From assembly GCF_913064665.1 (NCBI RefSeq), contig NZ_CAJYBT010000001.1, forward strand, positions 1 to 64,000: a stretch of DNA of 64,000 bases, written 5' to 3'. The position numbers were made by a program, and so were the translations under genes. Every line of letters starts with the position of its first letter. The first letter of the stretch is position 1. This document shows, piece after piece, positions 25,926 through 36,675 of this stretch. Source of the DNA: an uncultured Thioclava sp. Lineage in GTDB: Bacteria; Pseudomonadota; Alphaproteobacteria; Rhodobacterales; Rhodobacteraceae. Under the pieces are notes generated by a model, which made no database searches, was not told where the DNA came from, and saw only the letters and a list, made by a program, of their open reading frames with translations.

Positions 25926-27146
25926 ATGGATACCACGTTCTATGCCATGTCCGGCCAGAGCTTCACCGCCCAGGAAACCCGGATCACCGAACTCGAACAA
26001 CAGCTCTCCTCGGGCCGCAAGGTCGACACAGCCGCGGCAGATCCTGCGGCCTATACCGGCGCGCAAGAAGACAACTCGACCGTCCAGAAGCTCGACGCAA
26101 TGAACGCGAGCCAGGTCAACATCAAGCAGACGCTGGGCAGCGCAACCACAGCGCTGGGTGATGTCTCGACCGCGCTCAACCACATCAACAGCATCGCGCT
26201 GCAAGCCATGAACGCAACGACCAGCGGTGCCGACTTCCATGCTTTGGGCGATCAGGTCGAAGCCGGGCTGCACCAAATCCTCAGCCTGGCCAACACCCAA
26301 AGCAGCAACGGCAATTACGTCTTTTCCGGCACTGCCAAGCAGACCCAACCCTTTGTCCAGACAACTTCGGGATCGGTCAACTATGTCGGCAATGACGGCA
26401 CCTCCTCGGTCGAGATTTCTCCGGGTGTGACGGTGAATGCCGCGCTAAGCGGGTCGATCTTTACCAAGGTCTCGACCGGCAACGGCTATGCCTCGGTCTC
26501 CGCTACGAGCAGCAATTCAGGGGCATCCACACTCGTTTCGAGCGGGGTTGTGGATGCCAGCGCGGCAATGGCCTTCCATGATGGCACTAGCCCGATCACG
26601 GTCGGCTTTTCGACATTAGCGGACGGAAGCAAGAGCTACACCGCGACCTCAGGCGGCACGACGATCGCGACCGGCCCGGTGGACGACACCGAAGGCGCCG
26701 ATACGACCCTCACGCTCGAGGGCGTGCAATTCACGTTCTCAGGGCAACCTGCAAACGGCGATAGCTTCACCATTGCCCCGGCCCGCCCGCAATCGATCTT
26801 CGACCTGGTCAAGCAGATCCGGACCGCGCTGGCTGAACCTGGTTCTACGCCGGCGGCACGCGCCCAGACCCACCAGATCCTCGGCAATGCACTGGGGAGC
26901 CTCACCGGCTACCAGCACCAGATTTCCGGCGCATCGGCCAAGGTCGGCGTCATCTTGCAGGCGACCAATACCGCCGCGAACGCGAATACTCAGGCCAGCA
27001 CCAATGCCCAGACTGATGCCAGCAATCTGGTCTCTGCGAATATTCCGAAAGTGCTGACCGAGCTGCAGGACCGCACCTCTGCGCTGCAGGCTGCGATGAA
27101 GGCCTTCTCGGTCGCCTCACAACTGACGCTGTTCAAATACCTCTGA
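25926..27146 (+). CDS. flgL: Hook-filament junction protein FlgL
   Basis: The protein has 406 residues with flagellin-like ends: ETRITELEQQLSSGRKVDTA near residues 17-36 and LQDRTSALQAAMKAFSVASQ near the C terminus. This is FlgL (HAP3). The ATG at 25926 is chosen because the frame, although open to 25800, would otherwise begin inside flgK without a ribosome binding site. It is followed 13 bases later by the large glycosyltransferase gene. Confidence 0.93.
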   Translation: MDTTFYAMSGQSFTAQETRITELEQQLSSGRKVDTAAADPAAYTGAQEDNSTVQKLDAMNASQVNIKQTLGSATTALGDVSTALNHINSIALQAMNATTSGADFHALGDQVEAGLHQILSLANTQSSNGNYVFSGTAKQTQPFVQTTSGSVNYVGNDGTSSVEISPGVTVNAALSGSIFTKVSTGNGYASVSATSSNSGASTLVSSGVVDASAAMAFHDGTSPITVGFSTLADGSKSYTATSGGTTIATGPVDDTEGADTTLTLEGVQFTFSGQPANGDSFTIAPARPQSIFDLVKQIRTALAEPGSTPAARAQTHQILGNALGSLTGYQHQISGASAKVGVILQATNTAANANTQASTNAQTDASNLVSANIPKVLTELQDRTSALQAAMKAFSVASQLTLFKYL

Positions 27147-27159
27147 GACGGGAATACCG

Positions 27160-30100
27160 ATGTCTGAACTACGGAATGCCGAAAAGCAGGCCATCTTCGT
27201 CGCGGGCTATTACCGCAGCGGAACCTCCGCTTTGTGCGGGGCGCTGGCCGATCTGGGGGTCCAGATCAAAAGCGACTCTCAGGTCAACGAGGCCAATCCC
27301 AAAGGGTTCTTCGAATCGACCGAACTGATCCGGTTCGACGTCCGCGTGCTCGATCTGATGAGCTCCTACTGGGCCGATCTCGCGCCGCTACCCGAAGGCT
27401 GGATCGAACGCGCCGATATCCAGCTTCAACGTGATGTTCTCTCGGAGATCCTCTCGCGCCAATTCGCCGAGGCGCCGCTCGTCGCAGTGAAGCACCCGCA
27501 CCTGTGTCGGCTTCTGCCGCTCTACCTTCGGGCGGCCGAGGATATCGGCTACGCCCCAAAGGTGATTCACACGCATCGCGCGCCCTACGCCGTCGCCACG
27601 AGTCAGGCGACCAAGAACAAGATGACACGCGCCCATGCCCTCGCCCTGTGGTCGAGCTACATCACCTCGGCCGAGCATCTTGCGCGGGGGGTGCCGCGAG
27701 CATGGGTTCACTATCCAGACCTTCTCAACGACGCGGATGCCACGGTGCGCGCGGCGTTGGACACGCTGAACATCGAAACCCCACGCGGTCGCAGTGTCGA
27801 TTTCATCACCAAAGCGCTCAACCGCTCAGACGAGGCGGATACAGCGGGGCTCTTTGCGCCGCTCGCAGTGTTGGTGCGCGACATAGAGGTGGCGATCCAC
27901 GAAAAAGCAGACGCGCAGACCTGGGACGATTTGCGCGCGCGCAGTGCCGACCTGGCGGGTTTCGTTGAAGAACTGGGGCGCTCGGGAAATCGCGCGGCTC
28001 CTGGCGTCGGCCACGGCCTGATCGTCTCGACCCCGGCGGGCCGGTCGATCAACCTTGCCAGAGCGACCAAAGCCCATCCCGTGCGCCCCTCCGAGCGCGG
28101 CGATCCGGCCGAACGTACCCGGCTTCTGGCACAGCTTGATGCACTGCGTGCGCAAAATGGGACGCTACCCGAAGTGAGCGTGCTGATCGCCTGTCCAGAA
28201 GGCGCGAGCGCGCAGCAGGTCCGGGACACGCTCGACTCGATCGCGCAAAACTGGACCGCGCCCGCTATCAAACTCGCCTACGCAACGAAGCCGCAATTCG
28301 ATCTCTCGCAGAACGGGTTGAGCATGGAGCATCATTTCGGGAGCGACGCGGAGATGACAGCGTCGCTCTTTGCCGCAATGGCCGAGGCACGCACCGACTA
28401 CGCCGCGATCATCAACGCAGGCGACATGCTGGAGCCGGATGCGATCGCGCGGTTCACGCTGCGTGCGGCGACTTCGGGGGCGGATATACTCTATTGCGAC
28501 GAAATCGCCCAAAGCCCCGGTGGCCCCTGGATCCGCGCCAAGCCGGCGATGTCCGCGTCCCGGCTGCTCGAATCCTGCTTTGTCGGGGACTGGGTCTGGT
28601 ACAAGGCCACAACAATCGCTGAGCTCGGCGGGTTCCGGCCCGGCCTTTATCCGGGCGCCGAGGAGCAGGACATGCAGATCCGCCTTGTCGGCGCGGAAAA
28701 GCAAGTCGGGACCATTCCCGAGGCGCTCTTTGTGCGCGGCGAGAACACGCGACGCGACGGCGTGCCCCTGGAAGAGGCCACCGAGAGCGCGCGTGCCGCG
28801 ATAGCGGCCCATCTTGCGCAGGCACAGATCGCCGCAACGGCGCGCCCCGGCACCCTGCCCGGTCTGTTCGTGATCGACCATGTCCTCGAAACCGACCCTG
28901 CGGTGACGCTTGGCATCCGTTGTCGCCCCGGTATCGCGCCCGATCTGGTGAAGAATACCGCCAATACTCTGCTGCCTCATCACACTGGCACCACGTCGCG
29001 GATCGTGTTTCTGCGCGATGAGGGTCTCGACGAGACGATGACCCAGTTTCTGGATCAGGTCACAGCCGAGATCACGCCGGGCCATCCCTCGGTCTCGGTC
29101 ATGAAGACCGCGCCGCAGCTGGGCGGGACACTCGCGCAGCTGATGCAACTGCGCCCCGAGAACCATGTCGCGATCGTCGATCCGATCTCGGTCCCTTCGG
29201 CCCAAGATATCCTCGGTGCCCTCGCCGCGCTGCTCGATGCTCACGCCGAGGCGGGCGTGATCGCCCCGCTCACCTTCTTCCGCGATGGCGAGCGCACGGC
29301 GCGCCTGAAAGGCCCGCTGCTGTTCGGCGCCCAAGCCAGGATCGGGGCCGGCTACGAGGCGCTCTCGCCCGGGCCGGGCGGCTGGCTCGCGACCACACAA
29401 CCGGTGGATGCTGTGGACGGCCCCGTTGTCATGGCCCGCGCAGGCATCGCCTTCGATCCGCAGGCTGTCACTTGGTCCGAACTCTGTGCCAGCCTTTCGG
29501 ACCCCAATGGCCCCTCGCAGTCGGCCGCGTTCTGGACACCGCATCGGCAGGTCGAGATCCCGGATCCCGGCACCGAGGCGGATTGCGAAGTCGCCGCCGC
29601 GCTCGCGATCGCCTATCGCGGCCACCACCATCACCCGGCAATGACGATCAAGGGATCGCCGCTGATGCTCGAGGGGCGCAGCGGTCTGGTGGACAACGAT
29701 GCCGCAACGCTCATCACGACCTCGGATCCCGCCGATGACGCTAAGTTCATCAACGCCGCACGGTTTGCCCGCCAGCATGATGGGCTGCAGGCGGGAATCG
29801 TCTCCGAGCCGATCGATGCGCTCTCAGTGCTGCGCGCGCGCCAGCAGGGGCGGCGCTGGGTGCGGATCAATCCGACCTCGCGTATCTGCCACCCCGGCAC
29901 AGTGAGCGACATCCCCTCTGACCTGAGCGTCTGGTCCACCCTGCCGCCGACCGAGCGCCGGCCGCTGGTTCTTTCGGCCGATCGCAACGTGGTCACCTCG
30001 CGCGGGCTCGCAGCGCGGCTGCGCGGGATGGGCGCACGCAATGTCGAACTGCGGGTTCCCCGGTTGAACCGTGAGGCCTGGGCGGCATTCACACCGAAAC

Positions 30101-30630
30101 CCGCCCGCGAGAAGCCCGTGGTCCTCTGGGTCGAGGAGGCCGGCATCGAGGTTCCCTGGATCGAGCAGGCGATCGCGCAGACCGCCGACCGGGTTGCCTG
30201 GACCCTCGTCACACGTACCAAGCGGGACCTGCCCGGGAACGTTGCGTGGCGGACGATACCGATCTTCGAGGAAGACTGGGTGCGACTGTTCTCCGAGACC
30301 GGCGCCTCGGTGCTGCTCCGGCCCACGCCCGGCGCCAACTGGTGCGACGATTACTTGATCCGGGTCGCACTGGCCGGTGGATGCCGGGTGATCGCCGGGC
30401 GCGAGGCCGAGATCCCCCCCGAGATCGCCGCACTGGTGACGAAGCGGCTCTCCTCCGACGGGGTGGCGCGTTGGGTTTCGGCGCTTCAGGCGATCACCGA
30501 AACCGGCCCCGACAGCACCGCGCGCGAGCAATTGCTCGAGATGCCCGAGACCTGGATGGAGGCAGGGGGCGACAGCCTTGCCACGCTTCTCTCGGGGGGC
30601 GCACGCGAGGACCATACCGATGCGGCATAA
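27160..30630 (+). CDS. Putative sulfotransferase-glycosyltransferase fusion in the flagellar operon
   Basis: The protein has 1156 residues and no signal peptide, so it is probably cytoplasmic. Residues about 10-230 look like a PAPS-type sulfotransferase: the phosphosulfate loop YYRSGTSAL (17-25), VKHPH (110-114), an HTHRAPYAVATS segment (137-148) and VHYPDLLND (183-191). Residues about 337-560 resemble a GT-A family 2 glycosyltransferase (SVLIACPEG, INAGDMLEPDA, LYCDE, EEQDMQIRL). Residues about 930-1110 look like a GT-B-type C-terminal half (PVVLWVEEAG; WCDDYLIRVALAGG). It lies between flgL and flgA and overlaps flgA by 11 bases, so it is co-expressed with structural genes. Flagellin or hook modification is inferred; the activity of each domain is not established. 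Confidence 0.65.
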   Translation: MSELRNAEKQAIFVAGYYRSGTSALCGALADLGVQIKSDSQVNEANPKGFFESTELIRFDVRVLDLMSSYWADLAPLPEGWIERADIQLQRDVLSEILSRQFAEAPLVAVKHPHLCRLLPLYLRAAEDIGYAPKVIHTHRAPYAVATSQATKNKMTRAHALALWSSYITSAEHLARGVPRAWVHYPDLLNDADATVRAALDTLNIETPRGRSVDFITKALNRSDEADTAGLFAPLAVLVRDIEVAIHEKADAQTWDDLRARSADLAGFVEELGRSGNRAAPGVGHGLIVSTPAGRSINLARATKAHPVRPSERGDPAERTRLLAQLDALRAQNGTLPEVSVLIACPEGASAQQVRDTLDSIAQNWTAPAIKLAYATKPQFDLSQNGLSMEHHFGSDAEMTASLFAAMAEARTDYAAIINAGDMLEPDAIARFTLRAATSGADILYCDEIAQSPGGPWIRAKPAMSASRLLESCFVGDWVWYKATTIAELGGFRPGLYPGAEEQDMQIRLVGAEKQVGTIPEALFVRGENTRRDGVPLEEATESARAAIAAHLAQAQIAATARPGTLPGLFVIDHVLETDPAVTLGIRCRPGIAPDLVKNTANTLLPHHTGTTSRIVFLRDEGLDETMTQFLDQVTAEITPGHPSVSVMKTAPQLGGTLAQLMQLRPENHVAIVDPISVPSAQDILGALAALLDAHAEAGVIAPLTFFRDGERTARLKGPLLFGAQARIGAGYEALSPGPGGWLATTQPVDAVDGPVVMARAGIAFDPQAVTWSELCASLSDPNGPSQSAAFWTPHRQVEIPDPGTEADCEVAAALAIAYRGHHHHPAMTIKGSPLMLEGRSGLVDNDAATLITTSDPADDAKFINAARFARQHDGLQAGIVSEPIDALSVLRARQQGRRWVRINPTSRICHPGTVSDIPSDLSVWSTLPPTERRPLVLSADRNVVTSRGLAARLRGMGARNVELRVPRLNREAWAAFTPKPAREKPVVLWVEEAGIEVPWIEQAIAQTADRVAWTLVTRTKRDLPGNVAWRTIPIFEEDWVRLFSETGASVLLRPTPGANWCDDYLIRVALAGGCRVIAGREAEIPPEIAALVTKRLSSDGVARWVSALQAITETGPDSTAREQLLEMPETWMEAGGDSLATLLSGGAREDHTDAA

Positions 30631-31300
30631 GCTTCTCGTCGCTTTCATGCTCCTTGCGGGCAGCGCGGCACAGGCAGCACCGCTCGAGCCAGCCTCGGCG
30701 ATTACCGCCGCGATCGCGTCACAGCTCGACGGTGCGGAGGGCAAGGTCATGTCCAATGGCGGCGCCATGATGCCCGCCTGCCAGGCGCAGCTCTCCGTGA
30801 GTTGGCTGCCTTCGGAGGATGACACCTTCCGCACCGCCTCCGTCACCTGCCCCTCGCCATCCTGGACGATCTATGCGGGGGTCCGCATCGTGAAGCGCCA
30901 CGTTGCGCTGGTGGCCTCACGCGCGATTGCGGTTGGCGAGGTGATCGACAGCTCCGACACAGCATCGCGCGAGGTGGTCCTCTCGGACGTGCACGGGGCG
31001 CTTCTTAGCCCACAGGTACTTACCGAAGGGGTGAAGGCGACACGCGCGATCCCCGAGGGCGAACCGGTGACTCGGTCGATGACCGACCTGACCCGCTCGG
31101 TCCACAGCGGACAACAGGTGGTGCTGCGCGTCAACCAGGGGGGGCTTGTCGTCTCTGCCCCGGGCCAAGCGCTGCAGGACGGGGCAATCGGCGACTCGGT
31201 CGCGGTCGAGAATGCCGAGTCCCATCGCCGTCTAAGCGCTATCATCGTGCGCTCAGCCCCGCAGCGGTCGGGCGTCTACCTCATCGCCCCCGCCGAGTAA
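30620..31300 (+). CDS. flgA: Flagellar P-ring assembly chaperone FlgA
   Basis: The protein has 226 residues. A Sec signal peptide ends at about SAAQA/APL (residue 18). The C-terminal SAF-type region (about 95-225) has LVASRAIAVGEVIDSSDTAS, TRAIPEGEPVTRSMTDLT and QVVLRVNQGGLVVSAPGQAL, the FlgA pattern. FlgA is a periplasmic chaperone for FlgI. The ATG at 30620 overlaps the end of the glycosyltransferase gene by 11 bases. Its place far from flgHI is a rearrangement relative to common gene orders. Confidence 0.9.
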   Translation: MRHKLLVAFMLLAGSAAQAAPLEPASAITAAIASQLDGAEGKVMSNGGAMMPACQAQLSVSWLPSEDDTFRTASVTCPSPSWTIYAGVRIVKRHVALVASRAIAVGEVIDSSDTASREVVLSDVHGALLSPQVLTEGVKATRAIPEGEPVTRSMTDLTRSVHSGQQVVLRVNQGGLVVSAPGQALQDGAIGDSVAVENAESHRRLSAIIVRSAPQRSGVYLIAPAE

Positions 31301-32584: not shown

Positions 32585-33019
32585 TCACGCCTCGGCGTGC
32601 AGGCCCGAACTGTCATCCTCTGGGTCTTCACCCCGGCGCTGATCGATGATTTCGAGAAGCGCGTCGCTGATCTGGCGTTCGGATCTGGAGATGATCGCGC
32701 GGGTGCGCTTGTATTCATGGATCAACTCCTGCATCCGGGCCGCCTCTTCCTCGCGGCCGGGAGCCTCCACAAGCGCGTGGTAGGCGGATTCGAGCGTGTG
32801 GTGGTTTGCGTCACGTAACACCCCAAGCAAGCGCTCGAAGACCGAGCGGGCAGACTCTGCGCTGCTCTCGAAGGACCGGCTCGTGGTGCGGATCGTCGCC
32901 GGGCGCTCGCTCTCGAGGCTGGACGAAAGACGTTCGGCCTCGCCGCGCAGGCCGCGCACAGAATCGAGCGCCTCCCTGAGCGCCGCAGCGAAATCTCTCT
33001 TATCGCTCGGGTCAGTCAC
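32585..33019 (-). CDS. flgN: FlgN-like export chaperone
   Basis: The protein has 144 residues, almost all helix, with EALDSVRGLRGEAERLSSSL and LLGVLRDANHHTLESAYHAL, consistent with the FlgN chaperone for FlgK and FlgL. No ATG fits; the start is taken as GTG at 33019, which overlaps the flgM stop by eight bases. A TTG at 33025 is an alternative. Sequence conservation in FlgN is low, so the call relies on helix content, length and the flgM-flgN pairing. Confidence 0.65.
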   Translation of the reverse strand: MTDPSDKRDFAAALREALDSVRGLRGEAERLSSSLESERPATIRTTSRSFESSAESARSVFERLLGVLRDANHHTLESAYHALVEAPGREEEAARMQELIHEYKRTRAIISRSERQISDALLEIIDQRRGEDPEDDSSGLHAEA

Positions 33020-33344
33020 TACCAAGCTTCCGCGCGACCAGCCGCTCGAAGGAGAGCAGCGCCTTGGCAACCTTGGACGAGTCGGGGCGATAGCTCCCCT
33101 GCGCCACCGATTGCATGAGTTGCTGGATCTGGGGGTCGCCCTCGGGGCGATCGGCTGCGGCCACCCCTTTGTAAAGCGCCGCGGCATCGGTGGCGCGCTC
33201 GGAAAGCGAGACAGTTTCCCCAGACTGGACGGGGTTGGTTCCTTCACCGGCCTCGGGCGCGGCAGGTTCTGCGGCAGGCCCGACCGCGGAAGTCGATTGG
33301 TCAAGCGGAATGGATCCGCTGGTTGCGCCGGAAATCTTGATCAT
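33012..33344 (-). CDS. flgM: Anti-sigma28 factor FlgM
   Basis: The protein has 110 residues. The disordered N terminus (ISGATSGSIPLDQS, Pro/Ala/Glu-rich) contrasts with a C-terminal helical half containing VAQGSYRPDSSKVAKALLSF (about 80-99), matching the FlgM sigma-binding region (I..G.Y.VD...VA..ML.FE). FlgM holds FliA until it is exported through the finished hook. Its cognate sigma factor is encoded at 8483. It follows fliS by two bases and is coupled to flgN. Confidence 0.85.
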   Translation of the reverse strand: MIKISGATSGSIPLDQSTSAVGPAAEPAAPEAGEGTNPVQSGETVSLSERATDAAALYKGVAAADRPEGDPQIQQLMQSVAQGSYRPDSSKVAKALLSFERLVARKLGSD

Positions 33345-35235: not shown

Positions 35236-36675
35236 TTACGGCAGCAGCGAGAGATAGGACTGCTGCAGACGGCTGCTCGACTTGAGTGCCGAGACGCCCG
35301 CTTGAGCCTGAATCTGGCTTTGGGTCAGTTTCTGGGTGACCTCAGGGATGTTGGCGTCCTGCACCGCCGAGAGGCCGTTTTGCAGGTTGCTCTGGGTGGT
35401 GGTCAGGTTGTTGAGCGTCGCCTGCATCCGCTGCTGGGTGGCGCCGAGCTGACCGCCGAGGTTGTTGAGCCCCTGGATCGCATATTTCACGACGTTGATC
35501 GCCTTGTTGGCGCCTGCCGTGGTCGAGACGTCAATCGAGGACAGCTTCTCAAGATTCGACTGGGTCTTCAGGCCGACGGCGCTGGCGCTGCCCACGTGGA
35601 AGGCCGCGTCGGACTGGAACGAGATCTTGCCCTGAGCGACCAGGTGATCCGTACCGCCCGAGGATGCAGCGGTCGAGTTCCCGACGGAGGTCAGTGTTCC
35701 CGAGGTAATGCCAGTGATCGAGATGTTCTTGCCGTCACCCTGAGTCAGCACGACATTGCCCGCGGTGTCTTGCTTGGCCGTGATACCGGTTTTCGCCGTG
35801 TGGCCGTTGATCGCGTCGACAAGGCCCGACTTGCTGGTGGCCGAGATATTGACTGTGTTGGTCGCGCTGGCCGCGTTACCGTTGCCCAGCGTGAAGTTGA
35901 AGGAGCTGCCCGTAGCGGTCAAGTCCAGCTCGGTGCGCGCCTGCGCGGTCACGCCGGTCTGGTTGGTGTGCTGGTTAATGCTGGCCGCGATAGTAGCTGC
36001 GGAGTCAGTCGCAGCGACGGTTACATTGGCCTTGCCGTTCGCACCCTGAATCGCCAGCGTGCCGGCGCCAAAGCCCGCCCCGCTTGCCGTGACATCTGCG
36101 GAGCTGCCGGCGGAGAACTTCGCCGAGGCGCCCGTGGAGGCGTCGAGCGTGTTCATGCCGATAGTGTCAGCCGAGGTGCTCCCGATCGAGAGGCTCAGTG
36201 TCTGGCCTTCGTTCGCACCGACCTGAAACTGCACCCCCGAGAAGGTGCCGTCGAGCAGGCTGATGTTGTTGAACTGGGTCTGATTTGCGATCGTGCTCAC
36301 CTGACCGGTCAGCTGCGAGACGACACCCTGAAGCGATTGCGCCTCTTCCGCCGTCTGCGTGCCGTTGGCGGCCTGCACCGCGATCGAGTTCAGCTTCTGT
36401 GCCACGTTGAGCTGCTGCTGAACCGCACCCTGCGCGGTCTGCAAGAGCGAGATTCCTTCGCTGGCGTTGCTGCTGGCCTGGCTCACGCCGTTGATCTGGC
36501 TGGTGAAGCCCTGCGCGGTGATAAAGCCCGCCGGGTTGTCGGAGGGGCTGTTAACCTTCTGACCGCTCGAGAGCTGTTGCTCGTAGCTGTCATTGGATTG
36601 CTGAGCGGCGGAAATGCCGTTCAGCGCGGTCAGCGCGCCGCTGTTAGAAAGAATTGAACCGATTGCACCGGACAT
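35236..36675 (-). CDS. fliC: Flagellin
   Basis: The protein has 479 residues. The conserved N-terminal D0/D1 region has SYEQQLSSGQKVNSPSDNPA and GISLLQTAQGAVQQQLN, and the C-terminal D1/D0 has IQGLNNLGGQLGATQQRMQA and SSRLQQSYLSLLP. The variable centre (about 150-350) is rich in Ser, Thr and Ala, giving many possible O-linked modification sites. A strong AGGAG precedes the ATG. It is the only flagellin in the window and begins the fliC-fliD-fliS-flgM-flgN group. Confidence 0.96.
   Translation of the reverse strand: MSGAIGSILSNSGALTALNGISAAQQSNDSYEQQLSSGQKVNSPSDNPAGFITAQGFTSQINGVSQASSNASEGISLLQTAQGAVQQQLNVAQKLNSIAVQAANGTQTAEEAQSLQGVVSQLTGQVSTIANQTQFNNISLLDGTFSGVQFQVGANEGQTLSLSIGSTSADTIGMNTLDASTGASAKFSAGSSADVTASGAGFGAGTLAIQGANGKANVTVAATDSAATIAASINQHTNQTGVTAQARTELDLTATGSSFNFTLGNGNAASATNTVNISATSKSGLVDAINGHTAKTGITAKQDTAGNVVLTQGDGKNISITGITSGTLTSVGNSTAASSGGTDHLVAQGKISFQSDAAFHVGSASAVGLKTQSNLEKLSSIDVSTTAGANKAINVVKYAIQGLNNLGGQLGATQQRMQATLNNLTTTQSNLQNGLSAVQDANIPEVTQKLTQSQIQAQAGVSALKSSSRLQQSYLSLLP

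Follow-up and report, generated by a model that had tools for sequence, protein, structure and literature searches.

The window is the whole stretch of DNA that was analysed, 64,000 nucleotides from an uncultured Thioclava sp. (contig NZ_CAJYBT010000001.1, positions 1 to 64,000). A flagellar gene cluster at positions 1979 to 36675 contains a gene (27160 to 30630, forward strand) whose product fuses a sulfotransferase to several glycosyltransferase (GT)-type modules. This flagellar-operon fusion protein is designated X, and residue numbers refer to the window copy. X probably consists of four modules: a sulfotransferase, a GT2-type module, a probable second GT2-type module and a probable GT-B-type C-terminus.

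The open reading frame of X starts with ATG and encodes 1156 amino acids. The gene flgL (25926 to 27146, forward strand; Pfam Flagellin_N) ends 13 bases before X, and flgA (30620 to 31300, forward strand; Pfam ChapFlgA), with an ATG at 30620, overlaps the end of X by 11 bases (30620 to 30630, forward strand). The length, place and overlap given for this gene in a preliminary description of the DNA agree with these coordinates. Pfam matches of the genes flanking X include FlgK, Flagellin_N (FlgL), ChapFlgA, FliL and FliP.

Full-length X is encoded in four distinct genomes, namely the window genome, Thioclava dalianensis (locus L030), Allgaiera indica (L028) and a Defluviimonas metagenome-assembled genome (MAG; L029). 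The contigs L032 and L034 (the latter from genome G335) were taken to belong with L030 and L029, respectively, and L102 (genome G788), which shows no difference from L028 across 1159 compared residues, was not counted as a distinct genome. The three other proteins show 64-65% identity to the window copy. A flgL-X gap of 12-13 bases and an 11-base overlap with flgA occur in all four genomes, an ATG giving such an overlap being present at each of the four homologous loci; alternative flgA starts are possible in some of them. Wherever the surroundings of a full-length copy were read, the copy lies in this type of flagellar cluster, and the divergence of X between genomes matches the pace of FlgK and FlgL (63-68%). 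Every module of X is under purifying selection, with dN/dS (ratio of nonsynonymous to synonymous substitution rates; NG86) of 0.12-0.47 in all six pairs; several dS values exceed 1, and the C-terminus shows the weakest constraint. A chance reading frame, a frame fusion and a pseudogene were rejected on account of the full-length copies in four distinct genomes and these dN/dS values.

Two further observations concern these loci. The flgL gene of T. dalianensis (L030, 1222-2444) consists of two overlapping frames, which reflect a sequencing error or a broken gene. An open reading frame between fliP and fliD of the window (32585-33304, reverse strand) has no Pfam match and shows 55-60% identity to counterparts in L028, L029 and L034.

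Modules of X

The sulfotransferase module comprises residues 1-230 (27160 to 27849, forward strand). Pfam Sulfotransfer_3 matches residues 12-207 with E 7.4e-6 and 26.8 bits, slightly below the cut-off of 27, and the score in the genome-wide search is 31.1 bits, above that cut-off. In an alignment of 41 sulfotransferase domains, four of them from X (alignment A3), the loop GYYRSGTS (residues 16-23; 27205 to 27228, forward strand), which we take to bind the 5'-phosphosulfate, has G16, G21, T22 and S23 in 41/41 rows, S20 in 40/41 and R19 in 39/41. The residues R140 and S148 (27577 to 27603, forward strand), presumably the 3'-phosphate-binding pair, are present in all 41. Most of the module is modelled with a predicted local distance difference test (pLDDT) score above 90, and Foldseek with the X model returns the sulfotransferase 4gox at rank 50 (E 1.5e-5). 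The Sulfotransfer_3 match and the complete binding motifs bear out the earlier assignment of a 3'-phosphoadenosine-5'-phosphosulfate (PAPS)-type sulfotransferase N-terminus, and the domain is, by these motifs, intact. X is the sole Sulfotransfer_3 match in the window genome, in a search confined to this sulfotransferase family. Supply of PAPS in the host is plausible because the genome has one match to adenosine-5'-phosphosulfate (APS) kinase. The module is followed by a linker (residues 231-335; 27850 to 28164, forward strand), delimited by alignment with sulfotransferase-GT2-GT2 fusion proteins and modelled with low confidence at 275-313.

The GT-type modules were compared with FgtA/PA1091 of Pseudomonas aeruginosa. 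The protein used, WP_010793909.1 in locus L103, is taken to be FgtA because of its place and accessory genes; its record does not carry that name. The first GT2-type module (GT2a, GT-A type) comprises residues 336-570 (28165 to 28869, forward strand). Pfam finds only NTP_transf_3 (E 0.048) in the middle of window X, and Glyco_tranf_2_3 matches the T. dalianensis protein at 337-532 with E 1.8e-4, below its cut-off. By hhalign, GT2a matches the first GT2 of a profile of five tandem-GT2 proteins with 96.8% probability (E 2.9e-10), which supports the GT2-like middle part of the preliminary description. The tandem-GT2 hidden Markov model (HMM), with which FgtA scores 237 bits, matches window X at 399-636, running into the second module, and does not match reversed X. 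A weak glycosyltransferase match at 405-456 (E 0.0079) was obtained in PHROGs and none in NCBIfam. All four X proteins have NAGD in place of the DHDD of the relatives (n=4), CDEI in place of SDED and AEEQD in place of SQD(Y/H)D, and no counterpart of the DDxS-type stretch was found in alignments with GT2 relatives. The residues D422, D447, E448, E502 and D504 are invariant in alignment A1.

The probable second GT2-type module (GT2b; residues 571-800; 28870 to 29559, forward strand) is recognized from the model and from its colinearity with the sulfotransferase-GT2-GT2 proteins. All four X proteins have lost the DNGS-type and NND motifs of this module, VDP standing in place of NND. The probable GT-B-type module comprises approximately residues 830-1120 (29647 to 30519, forward strand), and the X C-terminus has no Pfam match. 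Residues 936-1118 match a profile of four FgtA-type C-termini by hhalign with E 2e-4 and a probability of 46%, and none of 100 column shuffles scored as well (best 24.1 against 37.9). This amounts to moderate support for the GT-B-like C-terminus proposed earlier. Against FgtA alone, none of 60 shuffles reached the score of the X C-terminus (best 27.4 against 29.5), and the FgtA-type GT-B HMM matches all four X copies weakly at the same place (E 0.0035-0.17). This family owes its GT-B label to Pfam GT4-type domains of one member (L127); the C-terminus of FgtA itself has no Pfam match. The FNxxKSxL(K/R) motif of the FgtA-type GT-B is absent from all four X proteins. It is not universal in the family: among 11 frames matching the GT-B profile, six have the motif, two have a close variant and three have neither. 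Its loss points to an inactive GT-B in X and is not proof of inactivity, because those three frames are also without it.

The roles of the GT motifs, including FNxxKSxL(K/R), are assumed here to be those generally assigned to them. On that basis, GT2b and the GT-B-type module of all four X proteins lack signature donor or catalytic residues. Two GT modules were described previously; there are probably three, and since two of these lack signature residues, describing X as a sulfotransferase with two glycosyltransferases claims more activity than is likely. GT2a may still work, because FgtA, too, is altered at this motif (HAGD) and its second GT2 is partly degenerate, and yet flagellin of its mutant is non-glycosylated. 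The sulfotransferase appears to have the best case for activity of all modules and glycosyl transfer a weaker one, because the sulfotransferase motifs are complete and the GT motifs lost or altered.

Some results weigh against the assignment of the GT-type modules, and the homology of GT2b and GT-B is less certain than that of the remainder. The similarity of GT2a to FgtA alone is marginal, with 2/60 shuffles scoring as high; GT2b alone is not significant by hhalign, and 51/60 shuffles score as high against FgtA. Reversed, the X C-terminus scores 24.5 against FgtA as single template, compared with 29.5 for the real sequence. The model of X built from a 42-row alignment has high confidence in the sulfotransferase, fair confidence in the two GT2 stretches and poor confidence in the C-terminus. 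A 51-row alignment with misplaced GT-only rows was excluded from modelling, and a model from the four X copies alone has a mean pLDDT of only 35.8.

The best Protein Data Bank (PDB) match of the X model in Foldseek is the chondroitin polymerase K4CP (2z86/2z87; E 8.9e-11), which has two GT-A domains per chain, as X probably does. Identity is 12-13%, with TM-scores of 0.15-0.16 by query and 0.26-0.29 by target, and K4CP is, unlike X, a polymerase without a sulfotransferase. Fold matches of the model are supportive and not independent because its alignment contained tandem-GT rows. A sequence search of the PDB gave one match with X (E 0.29) and none with the X profile. Direct comparison of X with FgtA is weak by BLASTP (E 0.014), and single-template hhalign gives a probability of 3% (E 0.015). 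In a plasmid search with X, the matches in the 20 records listed (of 46) are to its N-terminal part, and a search with the C-terminus returned one meaningless match (E 0.9). In locus L058 (G502:C31:140824-141432), a sulfotransferase-domain match lies inside an open frame with a reported length of 25156 codons.

Distribution and relatives of X

X travels with one rare flagellar cluster. It was found in two of 16 genomes of the genus and in two of three genomes of the genus of the Defluviimonas MAG. In the family, 22/295 genomes match X, all matches outside the window genome staying within residues 4-301; in the class, 28/385 genomes match, with a full-length match in the window genome only. When 25 chosen genomes were searched with a profile (14 from the genus, the other 11 having a FlgL match), a single full-length match (G335) and a single match confined to the sulfotransferase were obtained. 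Short patterns of window X, run against 84,980 species genomes, gave three loci; patterns of this kind detect close relatives only. The sulfotransferase, tandem-GT2 and FgtA-type GT-B profiles matched none of 30 flagellar loci from other genomes of the family and class (L035-L053 and L074-L084, several of them incomplete), to which this count is limited.

FlgL of more than 33% identity is confined to the window genome and G335 among 394 family genomes, 29 of which have any FlgL match, and these two alone have FlgI of more than 43% identity among the matches listed (310/394 genomes). FlgI of all 16 genus genomes is at most 42% identical to that of the window; the window genome itself has a second FlgI (at most 42% identity) on contig C22. 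For three X clusters FlgI is available, and these three proteins group on a single long branch (support 100/100, length 1.7) in a tree of 41 FlgI sequences; the cluster type comprises window positions 1979-36675 and loci L028, L030 and L034. The branch is separate from three clades, which contain the other flagellum of the window genome, the Marinovum algicola fla2 reference and a third group of the family. Three flagellar types, fla1 to fla3, are recognised in the available part of one paper (PMC12363192). The X cluster may represent a fourth Rhodobacterales flagellar lineage, as judged from a tree in which fla2 was the labelled reference type. At 64.1%, the guanine-plus-cytosine (GC) content of the cluster exceeds that of the preceding 1978 bases (55.3%), of the sequence behind it (56.6%) and of ten further 20-kb stretches (60.2 +/- 1.6%); this deviation is in keeping with horizontal gain of the cluster. 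Three FlgI matches occur in the Defluviimonas MAG G335 (L034, L123), of which one belongs to the X-cluster type and another falls into the fla2 clade; at most two flagellar systems per genome are reported in the part of PMC12363192 that was accessible.

In the P. aeruginosa locus, three accessory genes follow flgL, and the FgtA-like gene comes between these and fliC. Like X, it is situated behind flgK-flgL in a flagellar operon and encodes a long single protein in which tandem GT2 modules are followed by a GT-B-type module (the second GT2 and the GT-B being probable in X) and an extra group transferase is fused; X is thus also a multi-GT protein close behind flgL. Both proteins have an xAGD motif in GT2a, FgtA with HAGD at the NAGD position of X and SDED kept, and both have a degenerate second GT2, partly so in FgtA. 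FgtA (1694 amino acids) differs in its N-terminal part, in which Pfam finds a CDP-glycerol-type phosphotransferase in place of the sulfotransferase, in a GT-B with FNxxKSxL(K/R), in the following gene, which is fliC and not flgA, and in the three accessory genes after flgL, which X lacks. The accessible text of PMC11833859 describes PA1091 as a GT2 plus phosphotransferase and flagellin of the pa1091 mutant as non-glycosylated. In Pseudomonas syringae, fgt1 and fgt2 are placed upstream of fliC (PMC3927599, in part), and in a survey of enterobacterial flagellin islands the main text, as far as available, has no word beginning with "sulf" (PMC4875605). From architecture and position, X is probably a flagellum-dedicated sulfo-counterpart of FgtA.

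Fusions of this kind also occur outside flagellar loci. Sulfotransferase-GT2-GT2 proteins were identified in other alphaproteobacterial genomes (L085, L086, L088 and L089), as were a sulfotransferase-GT2-GT4/GT-B (L087) and a sulfotransferase-GT2-RgpF type (L090). The sulfotransferase-GT2-GT2 proteins have the same order of sulfotransferase, linker, GT2 and GT2 as X and are colinear with it, but their GT2 motifs are complete and they have no FgtA-type GT-B match. The L087 protein (genome G588) combines, like X, a sulfotransferase, a GT2 and an FgtA-type GT-B; unlike X, it has 1529 amino acids, one GT2, an extra GT4 part and an intact GT-B motif. The fetched flanks of L085-L089 contain no match to flagellar proteins of the window other than X. 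The L088 gene lies close to a NeuB-family gene, so that sulfation may accompany nonulosonic acids elsewhere. Since the fusion type is present outside flagellar loci, it does not by itself make X new. The one-protein fusion was earlier singled out as unusual in a structural operon; its conserved place in the operon stands, and the fusion type and the FgtA precedent are known elsewhere. The novelty lies in a sulfotransferase within a flagellar operon and in apparently decayed GT modules.

Possible function of X

We infer the substrate, location, order relative to export and in vivo chemistry of X as follows. X would be an FgtA-like cytoplasmic enzyme, co-expressed with and dedicated to an accessory flagellum. 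Its GT2-GT2-GT-B chain would dock on flagellin or a hook-filament protein, or on its glycan, before export, and the fused transferase would add an anionic group, which would be sulfate from PAPS in X and a phospho-group in FgtA. The sulfotransferase would be the module likeliest to be active, GT2a may still transfer one sugar, and GT2b and GT-B would probably serve as a substrate-binding scaffold. An FgtA-like, flagellum-dedicated enzyme of this kind, with sulfate added by the fused sulfotransferase and docking by the GT-derived modules, is considered somewhat probable from sequence and analogy.

The flagellin gene fliC (35236 to 36675, reverse strand; homologous to genes in L028, L029 and L034) encodes a possible acceptor, which X may sulfate. 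Many sugars and phosphate-linked groups are known as modifications of flagellin, and sulfated flagellins are known from archaea. The Ser/Thr-rich flagellin centre previously offered as a source of acceptor sites is not distinctive: residues 176-375 of FliC contain 27.0% Ser/Thr, little above the two ends (22.9% and 20.2%) and below whole FliD (29.0%). On the other side, a Pfam scan of nine proteins encoded downstream of fliC revealed neither a glycosyltransferase nor a clear sugar-nucleotide gene, only, for example, a GFO/IDH/MocA oxidoreductase. Likewise, no report of sulfated bacterial flagellin was found in the literature, of which subscription papers lay largely outside coverage, and none is contained in the available parts of PMC5498481 (Sinorhizobium meliloti) and PMC10117803 (giant viruses).

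Another reading is an action of X on surface polysaccharide, capsule or lipopolysaccharide (LPS), with its operon place due to expression or chance insertion. Among ten scanned neighbours of fusion loci, Wzt (L086), NeuB (L088) and polysaccharide-export (L089) genes accompany fusions of the same architecture, and the remaining ones give no pointer to surface glycans. Sulfated LPS and capsule-type polysaccharide occur in S. meliloti, flagellin being mentioned only as a regulated gene in the part of PMC5498481 at hand. Polysaccharide as the target is nevertheless quite unlikely, as the place and coupling of X are conserved in all four genomes, it diverges at the pace of FlgK and FlgL, and the copies with known surroundings all sit in this type of flagellar cluster. 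A fully working sulfotransferase and multi-glycosyltransferase, building and sulfating a short glycan on flagellin as the preliminary description proposed, is unlikely. The missing DNGS-type and NND motifs of GT2b, the missing FNxxKSxL(K/R) in all four GT-B modules and the missing DDxS-type counterpart in GT2a speak against it; the retained acidic residues of GT2a, the altered motif and degenerate second GT2 of FgtA, which is needed for glycosylation, purifying selection on all modules and the three GT-B-profile matches without the KS motif speak for it. If the GT modules were only a docking platform, X could sulfate a flagellar protein directly at Tyr, Ser or Thr, without a glycan. This would fit the lost GT motifs beside an intact sulfotransferase and the Tyr residues of FlgE (8), FlgK (10), FlgL (8) and FliD (8). 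It is very unlikely, however, given only three Tyr in FliC and a sulfotransferase that aligns with GT-fusion domains, in a comparison that held no known protein-tyrosine sulfotransferase.

The preferred reading, an FgtA-like enzyme that adds sulfate for an accessory flagellum, could extend to a filament or hook sulfated by an enzyme whose GT modules have decayed to a scaffold, in a fourth Rhodobacterales flagellar lineage; in this full form it is put forward only tentatively. If true, a sulfated bacterial filament would be directly testable via a dedicated, operon-bound sulfotransferase, and X would show how a glycosyltransferase array may be converted to a carrier for another chemistry.

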